The notes below the pieces were generated by a model, which was not told where the DNA came from, searched no databases, and worked only from the letters and a program-made list of their open reading frames with translations. From assembly GCF_011764585.1 (NCBI RefSeq), contig NZ_AP022853.1:1781501-1845500 (forward strand): a DNA stretch of 64,000 nucleotides, written 5' to 3'. This DNA comes from Sulfurimicrobium lacus. Lineage in GTDB: Bacteria; Pseudomonadota; Gammaproteobacteria; Burkholderiales; Sulfuricellaceae. A program made the position numbers and the translations under genes. This document shows positions 4,858-46,306 of the stretch, piece by piece. The first letter of the stretch is position 1. Every line of letters begins with the position of its first letter.

Positions 4858-4893
4858 AACCATTAATCGGAAATTTGGAAAGGACTTCAAATA

Positions 4894-5814
4894 ATGCGGA
4901 TCGTCTTGTTATTCCTGCTTCAGTTCGGCTTGTCGGCATGGGGAAATGCCTGGGCGCTTTCACTCTCGCCCGTGCCGGTAGCGCCGAATGTCTACGCCTT
5001 CATCGGCGACACGGGAATGCGCAGCGTCGAGAACGAGGGCATGAACGCCAACAGCGGCTTCGTCGTCACCGATGAAGGCGTGGTGGTGATCGACAGCGGA
5101 TCCACGTGGCAGGTGGCGAAGGAAATCCATCGCGCTATCAGAGCGGTGACCAGACAGCCGGTGAAAATAGTCGTCAATACCGGTGGCCAGGACCACCGCT
5201 GGCTGGGCAACGGCTACTTTAAATCCATCGGCGCCGAGATCATCGCCGCCCGGCCGGCTCTGGCCGATATGCAGGCGCGCGGCGCGATGCAACTGGACGG
5301 CCTGAGTCAGACCCTGGGCGAGAAAGCGGCGGGAACGCAGCCGGTTTACCCCGACCGCTTGTTCGACCAGTCCGAAACCCTGCGCCTGGGCGGGCAAGAA
5401 ATCCAGTTGCTGTATTTCCACGGCGGTCACACGCCGGGCGACAGCGTGGTGTGGCTACCTAAGCAAGGCGTGCTGTTTTCCGGCGATTTGGTGTTCGTTG
5501 ACCGGTTGCTCGGGGTGCTGCCTTTCAGCAGCGCGACCGACTGGCTGGCCTCTTTCAACGTGATGGAAAAGCTGGGGCCGAAGACCATCGTTCCCGGCCA
5601 CGGCCAGGTCTGCGATCTTGATCGGGCGCGTCGCGATACCGGCGATTACCTGCGCCTGCTCATCACGCACATGAAGCAGGCAGTGGATAAAGGCATCGCT
5701 TTGCAGGAAGCCATCGACAGCCTGGATCAGAGCGCTTTCAGCCGCCTGGCCAACTTCGATCTGCTAAAGGGCGGAAATGCCAGCCGCGTCTATCTGGAGA
5801 TGGAGAGCCAATGA
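4894..5814 (+). CDS. Secreted metallo-beta-lactamase-fold protein with altered first metal motif
   Basis: 306 residues with a signal peptide, so probably periplasmic. The fold is supported by GFVVTDEGVVVIDSGST, GGHTPGDSVVWLP, LFSGDLVF and IVPGHG. The first metal motif, normally HxHxDH after an NT pair, reads NTGGQDHRWLGN (Asn95-Asn106), so the first two histidines are missing while later His and Asp ligands remain. Relatives with a normal motif include SoxH/quinoprotein-associated hydrolases and persulfide dioxygenases; the substrate here is unknown. The stop overlaps the start of the frameshifted cytochrome gene (ATGA), and a TauE/SafE exporter follows, so a role in sulfur or thiol metabolism is plausible but inferred. 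Confidence 0.75.
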   Translation: MRIVLLFLLQFGLSAWGNAWALSLSPVPVAPNVYAFIGDTGMRSVENEGMNANSGFVVTDEGVVVIDSGSTWQVAKEIHRAIRAVTRQPVKIVVNTGGQDHRWLGNGYFKSIGAEIIAARPALADMQARGAMQLDGLSQTLGEKAAGTQPVYPDRLFDQSETLRLGGQEIQLLYFHGGHTPGDSVVWLPKQGVLFSGDLVFVDRLLGVLPFSSATDWLASFNVMEKLGPKTIVPGHGQVCDLDRARRDTGDYLRLLITHMKQAVDKGIALQEAIDSLDQSAFSRLANFDLLKGGNASRVYLEMESQ

Positions 5815-35580: not shown

Positions 35581-36435
35581 TCATTCGCTCATGCCCAGCG
35601 CCTCGAGGCTCAGCATGATGGTCTCGATTTCCTCGGTGATTTCCTCCTGGCGCAGGCGATTGATGTGCAGGGCGCATTCGGTCACGCGCTTGTCCAGTTG
35701 GCGGATGGCCTTGTCCATGTGCTCGAGGCGTTGCTGGTTTTCCACCATCAGCGAGCTGTAAAAAGCTTCATGGAGTGCAGCGTAAAGGTAGTGGTCGGTG
35801 AGCTTGGCGAGGAAATCGTCGGGCGCGAGCGTGAGCAGCGGTGCATGGGAATAGTGATGGGCCAGCGGCTTCGGTTCGGGCAGGGGAAGCAGGCGGCGCA
35901 TCTTGATGTCTTCCGTTTCGCTGCTGTGGTAGATGACGACCAGCCCGAGCAGTTGGCCGCCCGGCAGTGCGCGTTCCAGCAGCGTGAACTGGCTGATGAC
36001 GGCGCTCAACACCGCTTCCACTTCTTCCGCCACGCTGGGGCCGCCGATTACGGCGGCGAGGGCGGGGTAGTCTTCCAGTTTGGCGGCCAGCCGATGGCCG
36101 ACGGCGACAACCGGCGGCCTGTCCGCTTCAGGCAATCGTTCCTGAACTGCCTGCGCGATGCTTTCGTTGAAGTCGCCGCACAAGCCGTGTTCCGAACCGA
36201 CCACGAGGTAGGCATTGCGCACGGTTTGGTCGTGTGCCGATGCGTTGCCGTAATGGGCCATGAAATCGCTGGCGACGGTCTCGATCGTCGCCACGGCTTC
36301 CTGCTGGATGGCGAGGAAACGCGTGAGCTTCAGGGTTTCCATGAGGGCCAGGTTTTTCATCGCGACCATGATGCCTTCGATTTCGCCCAGGCCGGCGACC
36401 CGGCTTTGCAGCTCATGCCGGCGGCTCATGCTCAC
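35581..36435 (-). CDS. atpG: N-type ATPase gamma subunit
   Basis: About 284 residues, the last gene of the N-type ATPase operon. The rotor stalk signature is present: [20 protein letters not shown] at the start and [24 protein letters not shown] at the C-terminus, the two helices that form the coiled coil inside the alpha/beta ring. Overlaps the end of atpA by about 23 bases. GTG 36435 is used; ATG 36429 is an alternative. Links catalytic head and c-ring. Confidence 0.88.
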
Positions 36436-37915
36436 CCTCCGTCAGCCACATCCAGACTGCGTTGCGCCATTGCTCCCTGCCGTCGGCGAGCGTCAGGCCG
36501 GAGTCGGCCACCTGCTGCCGCAGCCGCTCCAGTCGTGGCGCAAGCTGTGCCCGTTCGACCAGATCGAACAGCCCTTCGTTGTGGGCGACCAGCCAGGCCA
36601 TTTCGAATTCGATCGGCAGCGGGCTCAGGCGGTCCTGTTTCATCAGTTCGCGCAGGGTCTGTCCGCGCTTGATGCGGGCTTCCATGCTGGCCTCGAGCCG
36701 GGAGCCGAAGCGCGTAAAAACTTCCAGTTCGAGAAATTGCAGGTAGTCGAGCTTCATGCGGCCGGCTTCGGCCTTGATCGCCGGATGCTGCGCTTTGCCG
36801 CCGATACGCGAGACGGACTTCGTCACGTCGAGCGCCGGCAGGAAGCCGCGCGCGAACAGTTGCGCATCCATGTAGATCTGACCGTCGGTGATGGAGATCA
36901 GGTTGGTGGGGATGTACGACGCGATTTCGCCCAGTTCGGTTTCGATGATGGGCAGCGCGGTCATGCTGCCGCCGCCGCAGTGCGCCACGAGACAGGTGGA
37001 GCGCTCCAGCAGGCGCGCATGGAGATAGAAGATGTCGCCGGGGTAGGCCTCCCGCCCCGGCGGGCGGCGCAACAGCAGCGAGAGTTCGCGGTAGCTGAGC
37101 GCATGAGTGGTGAGGTCGTCGTATATGACCAGCGTGTCTTTGCCCTGCCACATCCAGGCTTCCGCCACGGTGCAGCCGGCGAACGGTGCCAGATATTTCA
37201 GGCCGGGCATGGCCGTGGCTTCAGCGGCGACGACCGTGGTGTATTCCAGGGCACCCGCCCGGCGCAGGGTTTCGATGGTGCCCACGACCGAGGAGCGTTT
37301 CTGGCCGATCAGGACATAGACGCAAAAAACGTCTTTCCCCTTCTGGTTGATCACGGTGTCGAGCGCCAGCGAACTCTTGCCCGTGCTGTTGTCGCCGATG
37401 AACAACTGGCGCTGCCCTTTGCCGATCGGGATCAGCGTGTCGATGATCTTGTTGCCGGTGTAGAGCGGCTTCTGGACAAAGTCGCGGCTGGTGATGGGCG
37501 GCGACAATACGTCGAGATCGCCGCTGGCCTCGGTGTCAGGGCGGGGGAGGCCGTCAAGGGGTTCGCCAAGCGGGTCGATGACGCGCCCCAGCAGGGCGTC
37601 GCCGACGCCGATGCTCAGCTGCTTTCCCGTGAGGTAGGCGGCCGTGCCGGCGGTCAGGCGCTCGGTCTGGCGCAGGAGAATGACGCCGAGGCGTGCCTTG
37701 GCGAGGTGGAAGACCAGGGCCTGGCTGCCGTCTTCCAGCTCGATGATTTCATCCATGCTGGCGGACGGCAGGTCGCAGATCCACGCGATGCCGTCGCCGA
37801 CGGACAGGACTCTGCCGACCTCGGAGATGCGCAGCCGGAAGCTGTAGTTCTTCAGCCAGGCGGATCTTGCCGCAATCGGCGAGGTTTCCCGAATGTCTCT
37901 CTTAGTCGCGTCCAT
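36413..37915 (-). CDS. atpA: N-type ATPase alpha subunit
   Basis: 500 residues, nucleotide-binding non-catalytic subunit of the F1 head. P-loop [12 protein letters not shown] replaces the common GDRQTGKT, including the Mg-side Gln by Ser; otherwise the fold is complete, with [22 protein letters not shown] and arginine-finger SVSRIGG. ATG 37915 overlaps atpF by 14 bases. Divergence from housekeeping alpha subunits and the neighbouring subunit order identify an N-type (F1Fo, atpDCQRBEFAG) enzyme, normally present beside a standard F-ATPase elsewhere in the genome. Confidence 0.93.
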
Positions 37916-38651
37916 GGCCGTTGCCGCTGAAAAATGCGAGTTCGTCGCGCAGATTGGCATGCAGCACCCAAGGCCCGATGCTGATCCTGACGCCGCTCAG
38001 CAATTCGGGATCGGTGCTGAATTCCGCAGGCAGTTCTTGCTCCACCAGCCGGGTCAGGGTTTCGAGCAATTGCGCGCGCGGCCCGGCTGGCAGGGGGAAT
38101 GCGCTGGCGACGTGGATGCGCAATTGGCTTCGGTCCGCCGCCGCGATCAGCGGTCTCGTTTCTTCCGGCGTGAGTTTCTGCAAGTCTTCCAGCAGCACGT
38201 CGAACAGCGCGTCTTCGAGCTCGGGCGAGGCCAGGCGCGTCAGCAGTGAAGCGGCGAACTGGCTGGCCTGCGTCAGCGCCGTGATCTCGGTCGTGCGCTG
38301 CCACTCCTGAAGCTGCCGCTTTTCGAGGGCGGCATTTCTTTCGCGCTCGCCTTGCAGCTCGGCGGCGAGATCGGCCATCATGCGCGCGCGCTTGGCGCCG
38401 ATTTCCTCGATCAGCTGCGTCTGGGCCGCGTCTCGCGTTCTCTCCCATTCCGCCAGGCATCGCTCCTGCTGCGCCTTCAGTTCCAGCGCCTCGTCCTGGC
38501 TTTTCCGCGCAGCGGCCAGGGTCTGATCGATCTGCGCCCGGCGCCTGGCGATGACGTCGAGGACCGGGCGATAGAGGAAGCGCTTCAGAATCCACACCAG
38601 GACCAGGAAATTGATCGCTTCCAGCAGAAATGTCGTCCAGTCAAGTTCCAC
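37902..38651 (-). CDS. atpF: N-type ATPase b subunit
   Basis: 249 residues from a GTG start, longer than a standard b subunit (about 156) but usual for N-type ATPases. One N-terminal membrane helix ([20 protein letters not shown]), then a long charged helix ([20 protein letters not shown] and onward), and a C-terminal region of about 100 residues that may stand in for the missing delta subunit, since no atpH is present in this operon. Acts as peripheral stator. Confidence 0.88.
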
Positions 38652-38666
38652 GGCCAGTCCCCGGTT

Positions 38667-38936
38667 CTATTTGTTAAGCAGGTATTCCAGCAGCGGGTTG
38701 CGGAACAGCACGATCAGCACGATGACCAGGACGTAAATGGCGAGCGATTCGATCATCGCCAGCCCGATGAACAGGGTGCGCGTGATGGATTTCTCGGCTT
38801 CCGGCTGGCGAGCCAGGGCGTCCAGTGCCTGGCTGATGGCACGGCCCATGGCGAGCGCCGGGAACATGACGCCGAGCGCGATGGCCAGCACCGCCCCCAG
38901 CGTCGACAGAATAGTGAACCACGTCATGTCACTCAT
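38667..38936 (-). CDS. atpE: N-type ATPase c subunit
   Basis: 89-residue hairpin of the rotor ring. Loop ARQPEA, ion-binding Glu63 and Ser64 in MIESLAIYVL with Tyr68, as in Na+-binding c subunits. In helix 1 the position aligned with Gln32 of the Ilyobacter ring, commonly Glu in N-type enzymes (PALGEGRA), is Met30 here (PALAMGRA). That weakens a Na+ site and may favour H+. Located between atpB and atpF, normal for this operon. Confidence 0.9.
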   Translation of the reverse strand: MSDMTWFTILSTLGAVLAIALGVMFPALAMGRAISQALDALARQPEAEKSITRTLFIGLAMIESLAIYVLVIVLIVLFRNPLLEYLLNK

Positions 38937-39615
38937 GGTTTTCTCCCTCCTTGTTTTTCTGAAATTCCTGCGACTGCATCGCGCCGGAAACGTAGATCAG
39001 CGCGAGCATGCCAAAGATATACGCCTGTACCACCGCTTCCACAATGTGCAGCATCAGCAAGGGCACCGGCACGAGGAAGCCTGCCACCAGCAGTACCAGC
39101 AGGGCCGCCATCTGCAGGCTCATGATGTTGCCGAACAGGCGCACGGCGAGCGCCACGGTGCGCGAAATTTCGCTGATGACATGGAACGGCAGCAGGAGCG
39201 GGCTGGGCCGCGCGTAATGGCGCAGGTAGGCGAGCCAGCCGTCGACGCGCACGCCGTACCAGTGCACCGAGAAGAACACCAGGATGGCGAGCGCGGCAGT
39301 GACCGAAAGATTGCTGGTGGGCGAGGACAGGCCGGGAATGACGCCGACCAGGTTGGCGACCAGGACGAATATCCACAACGTGCCGATGAAGGGCAGCACC
39401 AGCAGCGACTTGTCCGGAAGGATGGCTTCGATCGCCGCCTGCATCGCCGCAACGATGCCTTCCAGGGCAAGCTGGAACGGCCCCGGATCGAGACTCAGGC
39501 GCCGCGTGGCGAGCCAGCAAACCAGCCCTAATACAAGCATGATGCCCCAGGTGGTGACCACAGCTTCGCCGATCGCCAGCGGGCCGAGGTGAAACAGGGT
39601 TATCGCTTTTTCCAT
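38929..39615 (-). CDS. atpB: N-type ATPase a subunit
   Basis: 228 residues with five or six helices and the essential Arg in ALAVRLFGNIMS, plus LVGVIPGLSSPTSN and EAVVQAYIFGML. Forms the ion half-channels next to the c-ring. Start ATG 39615 overlaps the atpQ stop (ATGA), so there is no room for an atpR gene between atpQ and atpB, where it normally lies. Confidence 0.92.
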   Translation of the reverse strand: MEKAITLFHLGPLAIGEAVVTTWGIMLVLGLVCWLATRRLSLDPGPFQLALEGIVAAMQAAIEAILPDKSLLVLPFIGTLWIFVLVANLVGVIPGLSSPTSNLSVTAALAILVFFSVHWYGVRVDGWLAYLRHYARPSPLLLPFHVISEISRTVALAVRLFGNIMSLQMAALLVLLVAGFLVPVPLLMLHIVEAVVQAYIFGMLALIYVSGAMQSQEFQKNKEGENHE

Positions 39616-39887
39616 CAGTGCCCCCTGACGAAGAGATACACGTTGAGTGCGCCGACCAGAACGCCGACCACGATCAGGCCGACGGTCCAGCGCACCGAGT
39701 AGCCCTGGACCAGCTCGTCCAGCCAGTTGCCGAGATAGGCCCCGATCACCACCGGCAGCGCCAGCAGCAAGGCCAGCGTGCCGAGATAGACGGACAGCGC
39801 GAGCAGGGACGAGCGCTCACGTTCGGCCTGCTGCATGCGGCGCGCCTGCTGTTCGACTTTATGCTTGAGCTTCTCGCCGTTTTCCAT
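39615..39887 (-). CDS. atpQ: AtpQ, AtpI/ATPase-gene-1-like membrane protein
   Basis: 90 residues: a charged N-terminal part followed by two helices (ALSVYLGTLALLLALPVV and WTVGLIVVGVLVGALNVYLF) with the GAYLGNWLDELV turn that marks the PF09527 family. In N-type operons this protein is named AtpQ and is thought to help assembly or ion supply. ATG 39887 is two bases from the end of atpC. Confidence 0.8.
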   Translation of the reverse strand: MENGEKLKHKVEQQARRMQQAERERSSLLALSVYLGTLALLLALPVVIGAYLGNWLDELVQGYSVRWTVGLIVVGVLVGALNVYLFVRGH

Positions 39888-39889
39888 GG

Positions 39890-41784
<1,895 letters not shown>

Positions 41785-42796: not shown

Positions 42797-43429
42797 ATGG
42801 ATGCGTTGACGCGCGATCTGCGAGAAGCCCTGGAATCTCTGGATCGCCCCCGTATTGAGGCGCTTTTTCAGCGGGCGATGCTCCGCTATTCGCCGATGGA
42901 AGTCGCGGAGGGGGTGATCGTTCCTGCGCTGGAACAGCTCGGGGCTGCGTGGGAAGCCGGCACGGTCGCTTTGTCCCAGATCTACATGAGCAGCCGCATC
43001 TGCGAGGAAATGATCGAGCGCGTGCTGCCTCCCATGGCCCCTGAGCGGAAAGGTCAGCCGCGCCAGGCCATCGTCGTTCTCAGCGATTACCACATGCTCG
43101 GCAAGCGCATCGTCCTCGCCGTCATGCGTGCGAGCGGTTTCGATATTCTCGATTACGGGCGCATGAACGTGGGAGAGCTGGTGGAGCGTGTCCAGTCCGA
43201 CAACGTGAAGATACTGCTGGTCTCTGTCCTCATGCTGCCCGCCGCGCTCAAGGTGAAGGCGTTGCGCGCGGCCCTGGACGCCAAGGGAATCGAGATCCGC
43301 ATCGCAGTGGGTGGCGCGCCTTTTCTGTTCGATCCCGAGTTGTGGCGCGAGGTGGGCGCAGATGTCATGGGCCGCACCGCTGCAGATGCCGTGGCCATCG
43401 TCCGTCGCTGGATGGAGGAAATGGCATGA
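42797..43429 (+). CDS. Corrinoid (B12-binding) protein of methyltransferase system
   Basis: 210 residues. Helical cap domain (1-85; IVPALEQLGAAWEAGTVALS) followed by a Rossmann-like B12 domain with the cobalt-ligand motif DxHxxG as DYHMLG (Asp97, His99, Gly102) and RMNVGELVERV, GGAPF regions. This is the MtaC/MtbC/MtgC-like shuttle plan, so it most likely carries a methyl group on cobalamin. It is the first gene of a three-gene operon with a UroD-fold protein (ATGA overlap) and a DUF1638-histidine kinase. No matching substrate:corrinoid methyltransferase is nearby, which favours a signalling role over catabolism. Confidence 0.88.
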   Translation: MDALTRDLREALESLDRPRIEALFQRAMLRYSPMEVAEGVIVPALEQLGAAWEAGTVALSQIYMSSRICEEMIERVLPPMAPERKGQPRQAIVVLSDYHMLGKRIVLAVMRASGFDILDYGRMNVGELVERVQSDNVKILLVSVLMLPAALKVKALRAALDAKGIEIRIAVGGAPFLFDPELWREVGADVMGRTAADAVAIVRRWMEEMA

Positions 43430-44463
43430 TGACCTCGATGCAAAGAGTCATGACGGCCATGGCGCATCAGGAGCCCGACCGCGTCCCCCTGTTCCTCCTC
43501 ACCACCATGCACGGGGCCAAGGAGCTGGGGCTGAGCATCCGCGATTATTTTTCCCGCGCCGAGTTCGTGGCCGAGGGGCAGATGCGCTTGCTGGAGAAGT
43601 ACCGCAGCGACTGCCTCTACCCGTTCTACTACGCCTCACTCGAAAATGAAGCCTTCGGCGGCGAGACCATCTTCATCGACGACGGGCCGCCCAATTCTGG
43701 CGGCCCTGTCATCGGCCGCAGCGAGGACATCGACCGCCTCGCACCGCCGCGGGTAGCGGACTTGGCCTGCCTGCAACGCGGGCTGGAGACCATCCGTATT
43801 TTGAAAGAGCGGGTGGGGGACAGCGTACCCATCATGGGCTCGGTGATTTCTCCCTTCTCGCTGCCCATCCTGCAGATGGGATTCGACCGCTACATCGAGC
43901 TGATCTACGAGCAACCGGAGCGTTTCGCCCGCCTGATGGCGGTCAACCAGTCATTCTGCGCGGACTGGGCCAACGCCCAGCTGGCTGCGGGCGCCACGGC
44001 CATCGGCTATGCCGACCCGATGTCCTCGACCACCAACATCCCGCGGGCGCTCTACCTGAAGACCGGCCACCGGGTGGCCATGGAGACCCTGCGTTTGATC
44101 AAAGGGCCGGCGGCGATCCATCTCGCCTCGGGGCGCGGGTTGGGCATCGCCGAGGACATCGTCGCCACCGGGACGCCGGCAGTGGGCGTCAGCACCCTGG
44201 AGGACCTGACCGAGTGGAAGTCTGCCGTGGGCGATAGGCTTACCCTGCTGGGCAACCTGAACGGCGTGACGATGCGGCACTGGACAGGGGCCGAGGCAGA
44301 GCACGAAGTGAAGCAGGCGATTGCCAAGGCCGGGCGCGGCGGCGGCTTCATCCTCGCCGATAATCACGGCGAAATCCCGTGGCAGGTGCCGGACGAAGTC
44401 CTGCTGGCCATTCGCGAAGCCGTCGACCTTTGGGGGCGCTATCCACTGGACTGGGTGGAATAG
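43426..44463 (+). CDS. UroD-fold methyltransferase-like protein with altered zinc site
   Basis: 345 residues from ATG 43426. TIM-barrel relative of uroporphyrinogen decarboxylase and of MtaA/MtbA methylcobalamin:CoM methyltransferases (QRVMTAMAHQEPDRVPLF start, MGFDRYIELIYEQPE). In MtaA/MtbA zinc binds His-x-Cys and a later Cys; here the first pair is His232-x-Ala234 (IHLASGRG) and the later site is Asn313-His314 (LADNHGE). So the thiol-activating site is changed. Uroporphyrinogen-decarboxylating residues are also not obvious. Likely interacts with the corrinoid protein at 42797 as a non-CoM methyl acceptor or sensor. True substrate unknown. Confidence 0.82.
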   Translation: MMTSMQRVMTAMAHQEPDRVPLFLLTTMHGAKELGLSIRDYFSRAEFVAEGQMRLLEKYRSDCLYPFYYASLENEAFGGETIFIDDGPPNSGGPVIGRSEDIDRLAPPRVADLACLQRGLETIRILKERVGDSVPIMGSVISPFSLPILQMGFDRYIELIYEQPERFARLMAVNQSFCADWANAQLAAGATAIGYADPMSSTTNIPRALYLKTGHRVAMETLRLIKGPAAIHLASGRGLGIAEDIVATGTPAVGVSTLEDLTEWKSAVGDRLTLLGNLNGVTMRHWTGAEAEHEVKQAIAKAGRGGGFILADNHGEIPWQVPDEVLLAIREAVDLWGRYPLDWVE

Positions 44464-44467
44464 CGTC

Positions 44468-46306
44468 ATGAGCGGAAAACTGTGCCTCCTGTGTTGCCAG
44501 AATGTTCGCGCCGAGGTCATGGCGGCTGTCGCAGCAGAAGGCTGGTCTGACGTGTGCGTCGCTGCTTATCCTGCTCGCTGCGGCCGTCCGCCACTGAGCT
44601 GGGACGAACTGCGTCCCCTTGTGGCAGAAGGCTGCGCCCAGGTAATGATCTTCGGGCGCGCCTGCCTAAAGGGGCTGGACAACCCGCCCGAGGATTGGCC
44701 GCCGGTGCGCCTGGTGGCCCAGAAAGAGTGTTTCCATCTGGTGGCGAGCGCGACCCTTGTCGACGATGCGATCGCGCGGGGTGCTTATCTCATCACCCCC
44801 GGCTGGCTCGACGACTGGCGCGGCAACCTGCGCAGGCTGGGTTTCGACGAGGGGGGCGCGGCGGGATTCTTTCACGATTTCGCCCGCGAACTGCTGCTGC
44901 TCGACACCGGCGTTATCCAGAATAGTTCCCTCAAGCTTGCCGAACTGGCGGACGCGGTCAAGTTGCCAGCTTCAAGCGTGGCTGTCGGCATCGATTACAC
45001 ACGCCTGCTGCTGGCCAGACTGGTGGCCGAGTGGCGCCTGGAGGGGGAGCGGAAGCAGGCGCAGGAGCGAGACCATCGCCATGCGCGCGAACTGGCCGAC
45101 CATATTTCCGCCATGGATTTTCTCGGCCGGCTGGCGCAGCTCAAGGACGAGCATGAGACGATCGCGGCAATCGAAGAGATGTTCCGCATGCTGTTCGCGC
45201 CTCAGGAGTTTCACTATGTGCGCTTCGAGGGCGGCGTCGCACAGTTCGACGAAGCGCTGCCGGAACTGTCGAGCCAAGTCAGGGCTCTGCATGACGACCG
45301 GGCCTGGAGCGCCTCGGGCACGGGCTTTCTCCTGCGCATCTCCAGTGCGGGTGAACCGCTGGGAGTCGTCGCTGCAGACGGTTTCGCTTTTCCGGAATTC
45401 CGCGACAGCTATCTCAACCTGGCGCTGTCCATCGCCGGCGTTTGCGCCCTGGCCATCGAAAACGCCCGTGCTTATCGACGGATCAAGGAGGTCGAAGATG
45501 CGCTGCGGGAGTTCAATGCCACCCTGGAGCAACGGGTCGCGGAAGAGGTGGCGAAGAACACGGAACAGGAACGGCTGCTGATCCAGCAGTCGCGACTGGC
45601 AGCGATGGGAGAGATGATCGGCAACATCGCTCACCAATGGCGGCAGCCGCTGAGCGCGCTTTCCCTCCTGATCACGAACATCAAGGAAGATTATGAGTTC
45701 CACGAACTGACGCCAAAATCCCTGGGCGACGCCATCGGCAGGGCGCAAAACCTGCTGCGCAGAATGTCCTCCACCATCGACGATTTTCGCGATTTCTTCA
45801 AGCCCAACAGGGAAAAGACCGTTTTCAGTCTCCGCGCGGTGGTCGAAAATGTCATGGAAATCATCGGATCGAGCCTGTCGGCGCACAACATCAAGGTCGA
45901 TCAGAAAATCACCGACGACGCGCTGGTGTGCGGTTTTCCCAACGAGTTTGCCCAGGTGCTGCTCAATATCATGACCAACGCCAAAGAAGCGATCATCTCG
46001 TCGGACCGCAAAGATGGCCTGATCGAGATACGCGGCGAGCGTACCGACGGCCAAGCGACGCTCAGCGTGAAAAACAACGGCGGATGGATTCCGGAAGACA
46101 TCCTGCCGAAGATATTCGACGTCTACTTTACGACCAAGGGAACCGGCACAGGCATCGGGCTCTACATGTCGAGAATGATCGTGGAAAATCATCTGAGTGG
46201 CCGAATCGAAGCGCGTAACCTTCAGGAAGGTGTCGAATTTATCGTTACATGCCCGGTGGCGACGCCTGTGCCGGGGCGGCCAACCCGGGCTGAGAAAAAG
46301 TCGTAG
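44468..46306 (+). CDS. DUF1638-GAF-histidine kinase of corrinoid operon
   Basis: 612 residues, no membrane helix, so soluble. Order: a DUF1638-like domain (1-195) with clustered Cys (6, 9, 10), a GAF-type domain (about 215-340), a coiled coil and a HisKA/HATPase kinase. H-box GNIAHQWRQPLSALSL has phospho-acceptor His389, the N-box NEFAQVLLNIMTNAKEAI is normal. The ATP-lid G1 box reads KNNGGWIP (Asn536, Trp540) instead of DNGGGIP, a change of the adenine-contacting Asp. DUF1638 proteins are otherwise found in methyltransferase clusters. No response regulator is adjacent. Probably senses methyl-corrinoid or partner state; kinase activity needs proof. Confidence 0.82.
   Translation: MSGKLCLLCCQNVRAEVMAAVAAEGWSDVCVAAYPARCGRPPLSWDELRPLVAEGCAQVMIFGRACLKGLDNPPEDWPPVRLVAQKECFHLVASATLVDDAIARGAYLITPGWLDDWRGNLRRLGFDEGGAAGFFHDFARELLLLDTGVIQNSSLKLAELADAVKLPASSVAVGIDYTRLLLARLVAEWRLEGERKQAQERDHRHARELADHISAMDFLGRLAQLKDEHETIAAIEEMFRMLFAPQEFHYVRFEGGVAQFDEALPELSSQVRALHDDRAWSASGTGFLLRISSAGEPLGVVAADGFAFPEFRDSYLNLALSIAGVCALAIENARAYRRIKEVEDALREFNATLEQRVAEEVAKNTEQERLLIQQSRLAAMGEMIGNIAHQWRQPLSALSLLITNIKEDYEFHELTPKSLGDAIGRAQNLLRRMSSTIDDFRDFFKPNREKTVFSLRAVVENVMEIIGSSLSAHNIKVDQKITDDALVCGFPNEFAQVLLNIMTNAKEAIISSDRKDGLIEIRGERTDGQATLSVKNNGGWIPEDILPKIFDVYFTTKGTGTGIGLYMSRMIVENHLSGRIEARNLQEGVEFIVTCPVATPVPGRPTRAEKKS

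Follow-up and report, generated by a model that had tools for sequence, protein, structure and literature searches.

Corrinoid proteins of methyltransferase systems, such as MttC, MtbC, MtaC, and MtgC, consist of a helical cap and a B12-binding domain, are recognized by the cobalamin motif DxHxxG, SxL, and GG, and usually depend on RamA as their activase. The methylcobamide:coenzyme M (CoM) methyltransferases MtaA and MtbA and the wider MtaA/CmuA family share the URO-D fold and have a corrinoid protein as partner; in MtaA and MtbA, a zinc site of the form HxC...C serves thiol activation. Among the familiar B12 sensors, in turn, photoreceptors and DNA-binding regulators predominate, in which the B12 domain is fused into the protein itself. 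A sensor kinase, a corrinoid protein, and URO-D-superfamily proteins occur together in the dichloromethane mec cassette, in which MecA is a kinase with a PocR domain, MecB the corrinoid protein, MecC, MecE, and MecI members of the URO-D superfamily, and MecD a receiver protein (PMC9768040). Here we analyze three adjacent genes in a stretch of 64,000 nucleotides (hereafter, the window) of Sulfurimicrobium lacus, namely, positions 1,781,501 to 1,845,500 of the forward strand of contig NZ_AP022853.1; the genome forms one contig of 3.83 Mb. The genes encode a corrinoid protein (P0001), a URO-D-fold barrel (P0002), and a sensor histidine kinase with a DUF1638-GAF input half (P0003), and the comparative sequence evidence indicates that they very probably constitute a conserved sensory module.

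The three genes lie exactly where a previous reading of the DNA, made from the sequence alone (the sequence-only reading), had placed them. The P0001 and P0002 genes share an ATGA at 43426-43429, and a gap of 4 bases (44464-44467) separates the P0002 and P0003 genes. In window coordinates, the features of the locus are the following:

42797..43429, plus strand: corrinoid protein gene P0001, 210 residues (Pfam B12 domains)
Within 42797..43429, plus strand: B12-binding_2 helical cap, residues 6-75, and B12-binding domain, residues 92-200 (Pfam)
43085..43102, plus strand: codons of the cobalt-ligand motif D97-x-H99-x-x-G102 (alignment of 73 rows)
43426..44463, plus strand: URO-D-fold barrel gene P0002, 345 residues, a relative of the MtaA/CmuA family (Pfam, NCBIfam)
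44119..44136, plus strand: codons of H232-L-A-S-G-R, at the place of the MtaA HxC, with Cys replaced by Ala (aligned with HIC-GN of MtaA, 4ay7)
44359..44373, plus strand: codons of D312-N-H314-G-E316, a loop kept in this barrel clade (alignment of 75 rows)
44468..46306, plus strand: sensor histidine kinase gene P0003, 612 residues, DUF1638-GAF-HisKA-HATPase_c (Pfam, AlphaFold2 model)
44468..45025, plus strand: DUF1638 domain, residues 1-186, with Cys10, Cys38, Cys66, and Cys88 (PF07796; alpha/beta model with a mean predicted local distance difference test [pLDDT] score of 95.9)
45149..45499, plus strand: GAF domain, residues ~228-344 (AlphaFold2 model; Foldseek matches, e.g., 6oaq, 5w10, and 4y2f)
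45605..46261, plus strand: kinase output half, HisKA residues 380-446 and HATPase_c residues 492-598 (Pfam)

With the barrel as query, GTDB species contigs yielded 209 relatives, the best 80 of which were kept as a sample and not a census. They include 74 orthologous barrel loci with 46-80% identity (L033-L106; L103 and L105 are partial matches) and distant relatives with 23-27% identity (L107-L112). The corrinoid gene is present in 72 of the 74 orthologous loci, in 66 of them directly upstream and on the same strand by the criterion of our script, and a DUF1638-GAF signaling gene is found in 66 of the 74, including 2 loci with the GAF part alone. Nearly all signaling genes (64/66) start between −59 and +41 nt from the barrel stop codon, with start codons chosen near that stop, and a spacing that is free of start codons, derived from profile alignment, places 62 of the 64 measurable genes between −47 and +101 nt from the barrel; the 2 distant genes are those of cable bacteria, in which the corrinoid gene lies in between. 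Two of the 8 loci lacking a DUF1638-GAF gene, L062 and L065, stop at contig ends. The sequence-only reading had made its interpretation hinge on co-conservation of the three genes across genomes, and this is what the search returned. The carriers, mostly metagenome-assembled genomes (MAGs), are by tree label and record title members of Pseudomonadota, Thermodesulfobacteriota, Myxococcota, Chloroflexota, Bacteroidota, Bacillota, Actinomycetota, Acidobacteriota, Verrucomicrobiota, and Lentisphaerota, and the set also occurs in the archaeon Methanolobus. Within the lineage of S. lacus, its occurrence is sporadic: P0003 matched 9 of 99 other related genomes at an E-value of 1e-40, 8 of them through the kinase half alone, with G086 as the only full-length match, and the 7 genomes from its genus gave no match (up to 13 candidates were scored per genome). 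Carriage on plasmids was detected in 1 of 72,556 PLSDB records at an E-value of 1e-60.

The association also holds when approached from the third gene. A search for DUF1638 in 398 Pseudomonadota genomes gave 59 matches in 57 genomes, 51 stand-alone and 8 fused, the latter including the window protein and 2 proteins that are cut by contig ends and were assigned by their low score. Apart from the window, the corrinoid and barrel genes lie directly upstream of the fused gene in 6 of 6 cases with upstream DNA, the corrinoid gene of L145 being cut by a contig end and the barrel of L146 split across two open reading frames (ORFs); the seventh fused gene begins at a contig end. As a within-genome control, 30 of the 116 URO-D matches in 14 carrier genomes were inspected with 1.5 kb on each side. 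The 8 members of the barrel clade (score of at least 512 on the clade profile), which largely overlap the loci already counted, all have a signaling gene, one with the corrinoid gene in between; the other 22 loci score 158 or less, and 0 of 22 has a DUF1638-GAF signaling gene. Three-way co-conservation, the reverse search, and this control exclude chance neighbors as an explanation of the set.

The output end of the third gene, by contrast with its input half, is variable. Among 61 third genes (60 plus that of the window; 6 genes cut by contig ends were left out), HATPase_c, marking a histidine kinase, was detected in 43, GGDEF in 16, a receiver domain in 11, and SpoIIE in 1, and DUF1638 (PF07796, E-value of 0.001) in 55; in L068, no output domain was recognized. 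Readout by phosphorylation, as envisaged in the sequence-only reading, is not general, because 16 of the 61 carry GGDEF in the place of the kinase. When the five output labels are mapped on the best barrel tree (58 rows; the short barrels of L098, L103, and L105 were dropped), 12 changes are needed, with 4 being the minimum possible, and the well-supported branches alone force at least 4 changes for GGDEF. The kinase form of the window falls into a clade with three GGDEF forms (support 100/99), and the closest barrel, 80% identical, belongs to the GGDEF form L035. Compared with the kinase-bearing L038, the barrel of the window is 69% identical and the DUF1638-GAF part 55%, whereas the kinase half is 22% identical. 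Likewise, pairwise distances of barrel, corrinoid protein, and DUF1638-GAF agree with each other (Spearman 0.56-0.65, Pearson 0.75-0.79; 51 rows), whereas those of the barrel or DUF1638-GAF agree less with the kinase half (Spearman 0.20 and 0.26, Pearson 0.58 and 0.67; 36 rows). A constant input half joined to exchangeable predicted effectors, as the comparison shows, is the pattern of a conserved corrinoid/barrel/DUF1638-GAF unit.

The same genome carries a sister module (G000:C1 ~328.4-333.1 kb; L113) with the gene order corrinoid protein, URO-D protein, RamA, and PAS/HD-GYP protein, which is one of the 22 nonclade loci of the within-genome control and has a hybrid kinase beside it. Its flanks encode the hybrid kinase, a REC-HisKA_3 kinase, and a LuxR regulator, the whole cluster spanning L113:3618-12754 (~326.6-335.8 kb, minus strand). 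The four-gene order recurred in all 8 genomes sampled, which were not picked at random: 5 come from the 11 relatives with RamA, and 3 from the 20 carriers with RamA. In the 5 relatives, the HD-GYP output is confirmed by Pfam in 2, and the other 3 match the whole HD-GYP protein; in the 3 carriers (Thiorhodococcus and two Chloroploca), GGDEF replaces HD-GYP. Homology between the GAF-type domains of the two modules was not shown by hhalign (probability of 10%). With RamA in the place of DUF1638, the sister module supports a wider principle, whereby corrinoid/barrel pairs are coupled to signaling.

P0001 exceeds the Pfam cut-offs for both B12-binding (55.2 bits; cut-off 32.1) and B12-binding_2 (48.1 bits; cut-off 23). 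The DxHxxG motif, which the sequence-only reading had described as intact, reads D97-Y-H99-M-L-G102, and its D97, H99, and G102 are identical in 72 of 73 aligned corrinoid rows, the last row being a partial ORF that is gapped there; S143, L145, G172, and G173 are each present in 72 of 73 rows as well. Thus, P0001 has the complete cobalamin motif as generally understood for this protein type, but not the score of the closest NCBIfam family, TIGR02370 (methyltransferase cognate corrinoid protein; 79.2 bits, under the cut-off of 215.3). Additional corrinoid-domain proteins of ~375-406 residues are encoded near the set at L072:12239-13456, L097:10925-12049, and L105:236-1351; those of L072 and L097 sit directly downstream of the set and contain the B12 cap and B12-binding domain after ~170-200 N-terminal residues without a Pfam match.

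P0002 has the URO-D fold (Pfam URO-D, 171.6 bits; cut-off 23.9), and its scores stay under the cut-offs of TIGR01463 (mtaA_cmuA; 96.7 bits, cut-off 235.4), MtaA_Meth (68.7 of 400 bits), and MtbA (66.1 of 600 bits). Assignment as the uroporphyrinogen decarboxylase HemE was rejected (TIGR01464, 45.3 of 302.95 bits); two further genes of the S. lacus genome match URO-D strongly, at 449 and 442 bits. At the HxC place of MtaA, H232 is conserved in 69 of 75 barrel rows and A234 in 75 of 75. The C-terminal Cys of the zinc site falls outside the alignment of P0002 with 4ay7, and no Cys is conserved at 90% or more anywhere in the barrel over the 75 rows. The DNHGE loop is conserved as well, with D312 in 73, H314 in 71, and E316 in 73 of 75 rows. 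By the features tested, P0002 is not an MtaA, because HxC is replaced by HxA and the scores remain below the family cut-offs; it could nevertheless transfer methyl groups otherwise, or may only bind a ligand. This bears on the earlier statement that no substrate methyltransferase lies nearby: although no separate one adjoins the set, the role of the substrate-side enzyme (methyltransferase 1 [MT1] type) could fall to the barrel. In a cable bacterium (L059:2415-7475) and a Desulfobulbaceae MAG (L065:7965-11208), two barrels flank the corrinoid gene; in L059, the DNHGE loop of the second copy is without its His, and in L065, the second copy is cut by a contig end.

That P0003 is a kinase with a DUF1638-like N-terminus was correctly recognized in the sequence-only reading: DUF1638 (PF07796, 28.6 bits, barely above the cut-off of 27), HisKA (33.8 bits; cut-off 26.9), and HATPase_c (62.2 bits; cut-off 26.4) all exceed their Pfam cut-offs, and kinase activity is predicted. 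The GAF domain has no Pfam match in the window protein and emerged from the AlphaFold2 model of residues 1-345 (mean pLDDT 94.5), with which Foldseek retrieved 10 GAF-containing structures at E-values of 0.001 or less, with modest template modeling (TM) scores. For the DUF1638 fold, Foldseek found no solved structure that matches well (best E-value 0.003, to generic two-lobed alpha/beta proteins), and matches to saposin profiles, with E-values of only 0.05-0.16, were judged to be due to chance. The domain is marked by four cysteines. Cys10 is present in 58 of 59 fused rows (L075 and L082, which have the GAF part alone, are left out of this count) and in 12 of 12 stand-alone rows that reach the N-terminus, the remaining 18 of 30 stand-alone rows missing it owing to the chosen start codon. 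Cys66 and Cys88 are found in all 30 stand-alone rows and in 48 and 57 of the 59 fused rows, respectively, whereas Cys38 is particular to the fused form (57/59), with stand-alone proteins having an invariant His beside that place. In the DUF1638 models, the four cysteines fall at or just past the ends of strands 1 to 4, an arrangement consistent with one putative metal site.

Stand-alone DUF1638 proteins provide a functional context for this domain. In Phaeobacter, the gene of PGA1_c13340 adjoins a corrinoid protein gene, its fitness patterns resemble those of a split B12-dependent methionine synthase, and its distribution in Alphaproteobacteria is nearly the same as that of a RamA-like protein; the authors placed it with B12 reactivation, without a specific proposal (PMC5764234). 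The Ruegeria protein SPO2162 showed raised abundance during growth on N-osmolytes (PMC12478193). P0003 resembles these proteins in the homology of the domain, the common Cys10, Cys66, and Cys88, and, in the case of the Phaeobacter gene, the proximity of a corrinoid gene, and differs from them in that the stand-alone proteins have no GAF or output domain, carry the conserved His beside the Cys38 place, and score 83-114 bits, as opposed to 28-47 bits for the fused forms. The simplest reading would be that DUF1638 handles corrinoid proteins and, when fused to GAF and output domains, reports their state.

On this basis, we infer that the set may be a self-contained cytoplasmic corrinoid-state sensor with modular output, a proposal for which we see an even chance. 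P0002, acting as an MT1-type enzyme, would move a methyl or other one-carbon group between a small molecule and the cobalt of P0001; whether the corrinoid state is indeed set by such barrel-catalyzed transfer could, in our estimate, go either way. DUF1638 would dock on P0001, much as the stand-alone proteins possibly dock on a corrinoid protein during B12-dependent methionine synthesis, and would read the state of P0001, that is, methyl-Co(III) versus Co(II)/Co(I), or loaded versus empty, with a possible contribution from the candidate metal or redox site of Cys10, Cys38, Cys66, and Cys88. The GAF domain and surrounding helices would relay this state to the output, which in the window would consist of autophosphorylation of P0003 and subsequent transfer to an unlinked response regulator.

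Several observations weigh against such a sensor. Six barrel loci with DNA to inspect have no recognized DUF1638-GAF gene: L087 and L088 have no signaling gene beside the barrel, L079 and L086 (both Bacteroidales) have neither a corrinoid nor a signaling gene, and L095 and L101 carry a PAS/GAF-kinase-receiver gene instead; moreover, the signaling genes of L075 and L082 keep the GAF part alone. The output labels are clustered on the barrel tree, with the 12 changes comparing to a mean of 24.6 after shuffling and a value as low being reached in 0 of 200 shuffles; therefore, outputs largely follow descent, with occasional exchange. In the same tree, 17 of the 55 inner branches are weak. Common ancestry of the loci inflates all distance correlations, and therefore only the contrast between them counts. 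The HxA in all 75 barrel rows leaves methyl transfer by the barrel a putative activity. Finally, of 43 carrier genomes, most of which are MAGs and one of which (L088) has no signaling gene beside the barrel, just 20 have a RamA-type activase (PF14574); such an activase also occurs in 12 of 61 kin genomes of S. lacus, its own included, and is missing from carrier G086, rated 100% complete. Therefore, the module does not need RamA, even though missing MAG contigs weaken the count; dependence on RamA was accordingly ruled out, and Co(I) would have to be regenerated in some other way.

Among the alternatives to a sensor of one-carbon transfer, the one that fares best is a redox or oxygen sensor, in which the corrinoid cobalt, as Co(I), Co(II), or Co(III), and the DUF1638 cysteines respond to redox, and the barrel only gives methyl groups or poise, with no specific substrate. 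The location of the four cysteines in the model and the tie of DUF1638 to B12 reactivation (PMC5764234) agree with this possibility, as do the carriers, which by name include sulfate reducers, Geobacter, cable bacteria, and sulfur phototrophs, and the sister module, where a member of the corrinoid reductive activase family, RamA, occupies the position in which DUF1638 would sit. However, if no substrate is sensed, there is no obvious reason why 72 of 74 loci should combine a URO-D barrel with the corrinoid gene, and no redox partner recurs near the 74 loci, so that we regard this alternative as unlikely, if worth weighing.

Other readings turn on the neighborhood of the set. ORF families common to at least 4 of the 74 loci, 37 of which extend over the whole 8 kb to either side, comprise the three genes themselves, other signaling proteins, shadow ORFs, and one ABC-ATPase-like family (6 loci). 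A sensor of corrinoid availability, in which the barrel is noncatalytic or a loading partner and the module reports apo versus holo corrinoid protein, that is, the supply of B12, would account for the missing HxC of the barrel and for the lack of a recurring substrate-linked gene family near the loci. Nevertheless, it is decidedly unlikely: conservation of H232, D312, H314, and E316 suggests barrel chemistry or ligand binding, and B12 transport or synthesis genes are not among the recurring neighbors, among which no search by name was made.

A conventional catabolic cluster for demethylation that includes a regulator of its own, on the model of mec, is slightly less probable again. Besides the parallel with mec, two loci point in this direction. 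In Azoarcus sp. KH32C, the set lies together with a second ATP-binding protein gene on plasmid pAZKH (262.8-284.0 kb; L190:17772-39011), between fae/fhc genes and a region of methanol/ethanol-family pyrroloquinoline quinone (PQQ) dehydrogenase genes, and in a Firmicutes MAG, a pterin-binding methyltransferase-like ORF (L078:2966-3793; 37 bits to the pterin part of MetH) is located ~2 kb upstream of the set. Neither context is general. The pterin-binding part of the MetH of S. lacus, used as a query, matched 1 of the 74 loci (L078) and nothing in the window, and a RamA query matched near none of the 74. Fae is encoded in 5 of 44 genomes searched, two of them Methylococcaceae of the barrel clade of the window, and not in the window genome. 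With 22 neighbors of the Azoarcus set as queries, no methanol-oxidation or tetrahydromethanopterin gene was found beside other sets; the matches were limited to HD-domain, one RuBisCO-like, and one sigma-54 protein, plus a metallohydrolase in the window. The one-carbon signal hinted at by the Azoarcus context, hence, did not generalize. The metallohydrolase ORF (window 4867-5811) resembles the quinoprotein relay system zinc metallohydrolase of pAZKH (phmmer, 108 bits) and lies about 37-38 kb from the set. Furthermore, the output is fused to the conserved unit and not just adjacent to it, and no catabolic gene family is common to at least 4 of the 74 loci, a comparison that would miss a gene differing from locus to locus. 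A catabolic cluster was rejected for want of a catabolic gene that recurs among the 74 loci. The claim of a sensor rather than a catabolic cluster is thus strongly supported by co-conservation in many phyla, differing outputs on a constant input, and the absence of a recurring catabolic gene, and the interpretation put forward in the sequence-only reading stands in part when taken as a whole.

A cobalamin photoreceptor that resembles CarH or the photocobilins and passes its signal to a kinase or cyclase is very improbable, even with several carriers named as phototroph genera and cobalamin-binding domains known as light sensors, one with a diguanylate cyclase domain. Of the published light signature GxxW, EH, GxxH, and GxxxP (PMC11796333), the first three elements of which were compared, the corrinoid proteins present GxxW alone (G49 in 69/73 and W52 in 68/73 rows), the EH places holding Val or Ile in 69 of 73 and Tyr in 70 of 73 rows, with His in none, and the Gly of GxxH occurring in only 2 of 73.

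In the surroundings of the set in the window, judged by eye, a peptidase-like gene lies upstream on the opposite strand and a hemolysin-III-like gene downstream. An ATP synthase cluster on the minus strand (35581-41763) resembles, again by eye, an alternative N-type (Na+-linked) ATPase operon, by a gene order that we take to be that of Na+-ATPases.

Should the set indeed sense the corrinoid state, a methyltransferase-type corrinoid protein and a barrel would, in many phyla, form distinct sensory subunits to which different outputs can be attached, and DUF1638 would gain a function, that of reading the state of corrinoid proteins. An explanation would be at hand for corrinoid/URO-D pairs that could readily be mistaken for methylotrophy genes, and one-carbon or redox state would be linked to two-component and cyclic di-GMP (c-di-GMP) control. 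A bolder proposal, which we rate at a little below an even chance, is that bacteria of many phyla and at least one methanogen lineage use a corrinoid methyltransferase pair as a signal receptor: the barrel would methylate cobalt from an environmental or metabolic donor, the DUF1638-GAF protein would sense the state of the cobalt and drive a kinase, c-di-GMP synthase, or phosphatase, and the sister module with RamA would feed HD-GYP or GGDEF alike, the two together forming a general class of corrinoid-redox/methyl signaling.

In the open-access literature (PMC, a scope that leaves most subscription papers and preprints outside), we found no description of this module or of its input, and the comparison with known systems delineates what sets it apart. 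With MttC, MtbC, MtaC, and MtgC, P0001 shares the cap, the B12-binding domain, and the seven motif residues kept throughout its family; it departs from them in scoring well below their family cut-off and in having a signaling protein as operon partner. P0002 has in common with MtaA, MtbA, and the MtaA/CmuA family the fold and the corrinoid partner, but falls below all of their family cut-offs and has HxA for HxC throughout its clade. The mec cassette, which is induced with dichloromethane, adds a proposed methyltransferase II (MTII; MecF) and a transporter (MecJ) to the parts that it shares with the set, and its kinase carries PocR, a domain that Pfam did not find in P0003 (PMC9768040). MTII or further catabolic genes linked in this manner are not a feature of the set, given the single pterin-binding match among the 74 loci and none in the window. 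CarH, photocobilins, and other B12 photoreceptors likewise employ a B12 protein as a sensor, and one has a diguanylate cyclase domain (PMC11796333), but their B12 domain is fused to the output and has the EH signature, whereas P0001, a methyltransferase-type protein, is encoded apart from the output, is paired with a barrel, and lacks EH. What is new is therefore the input side of the module, whose sensing function we infer, joined to output ends that are standard.

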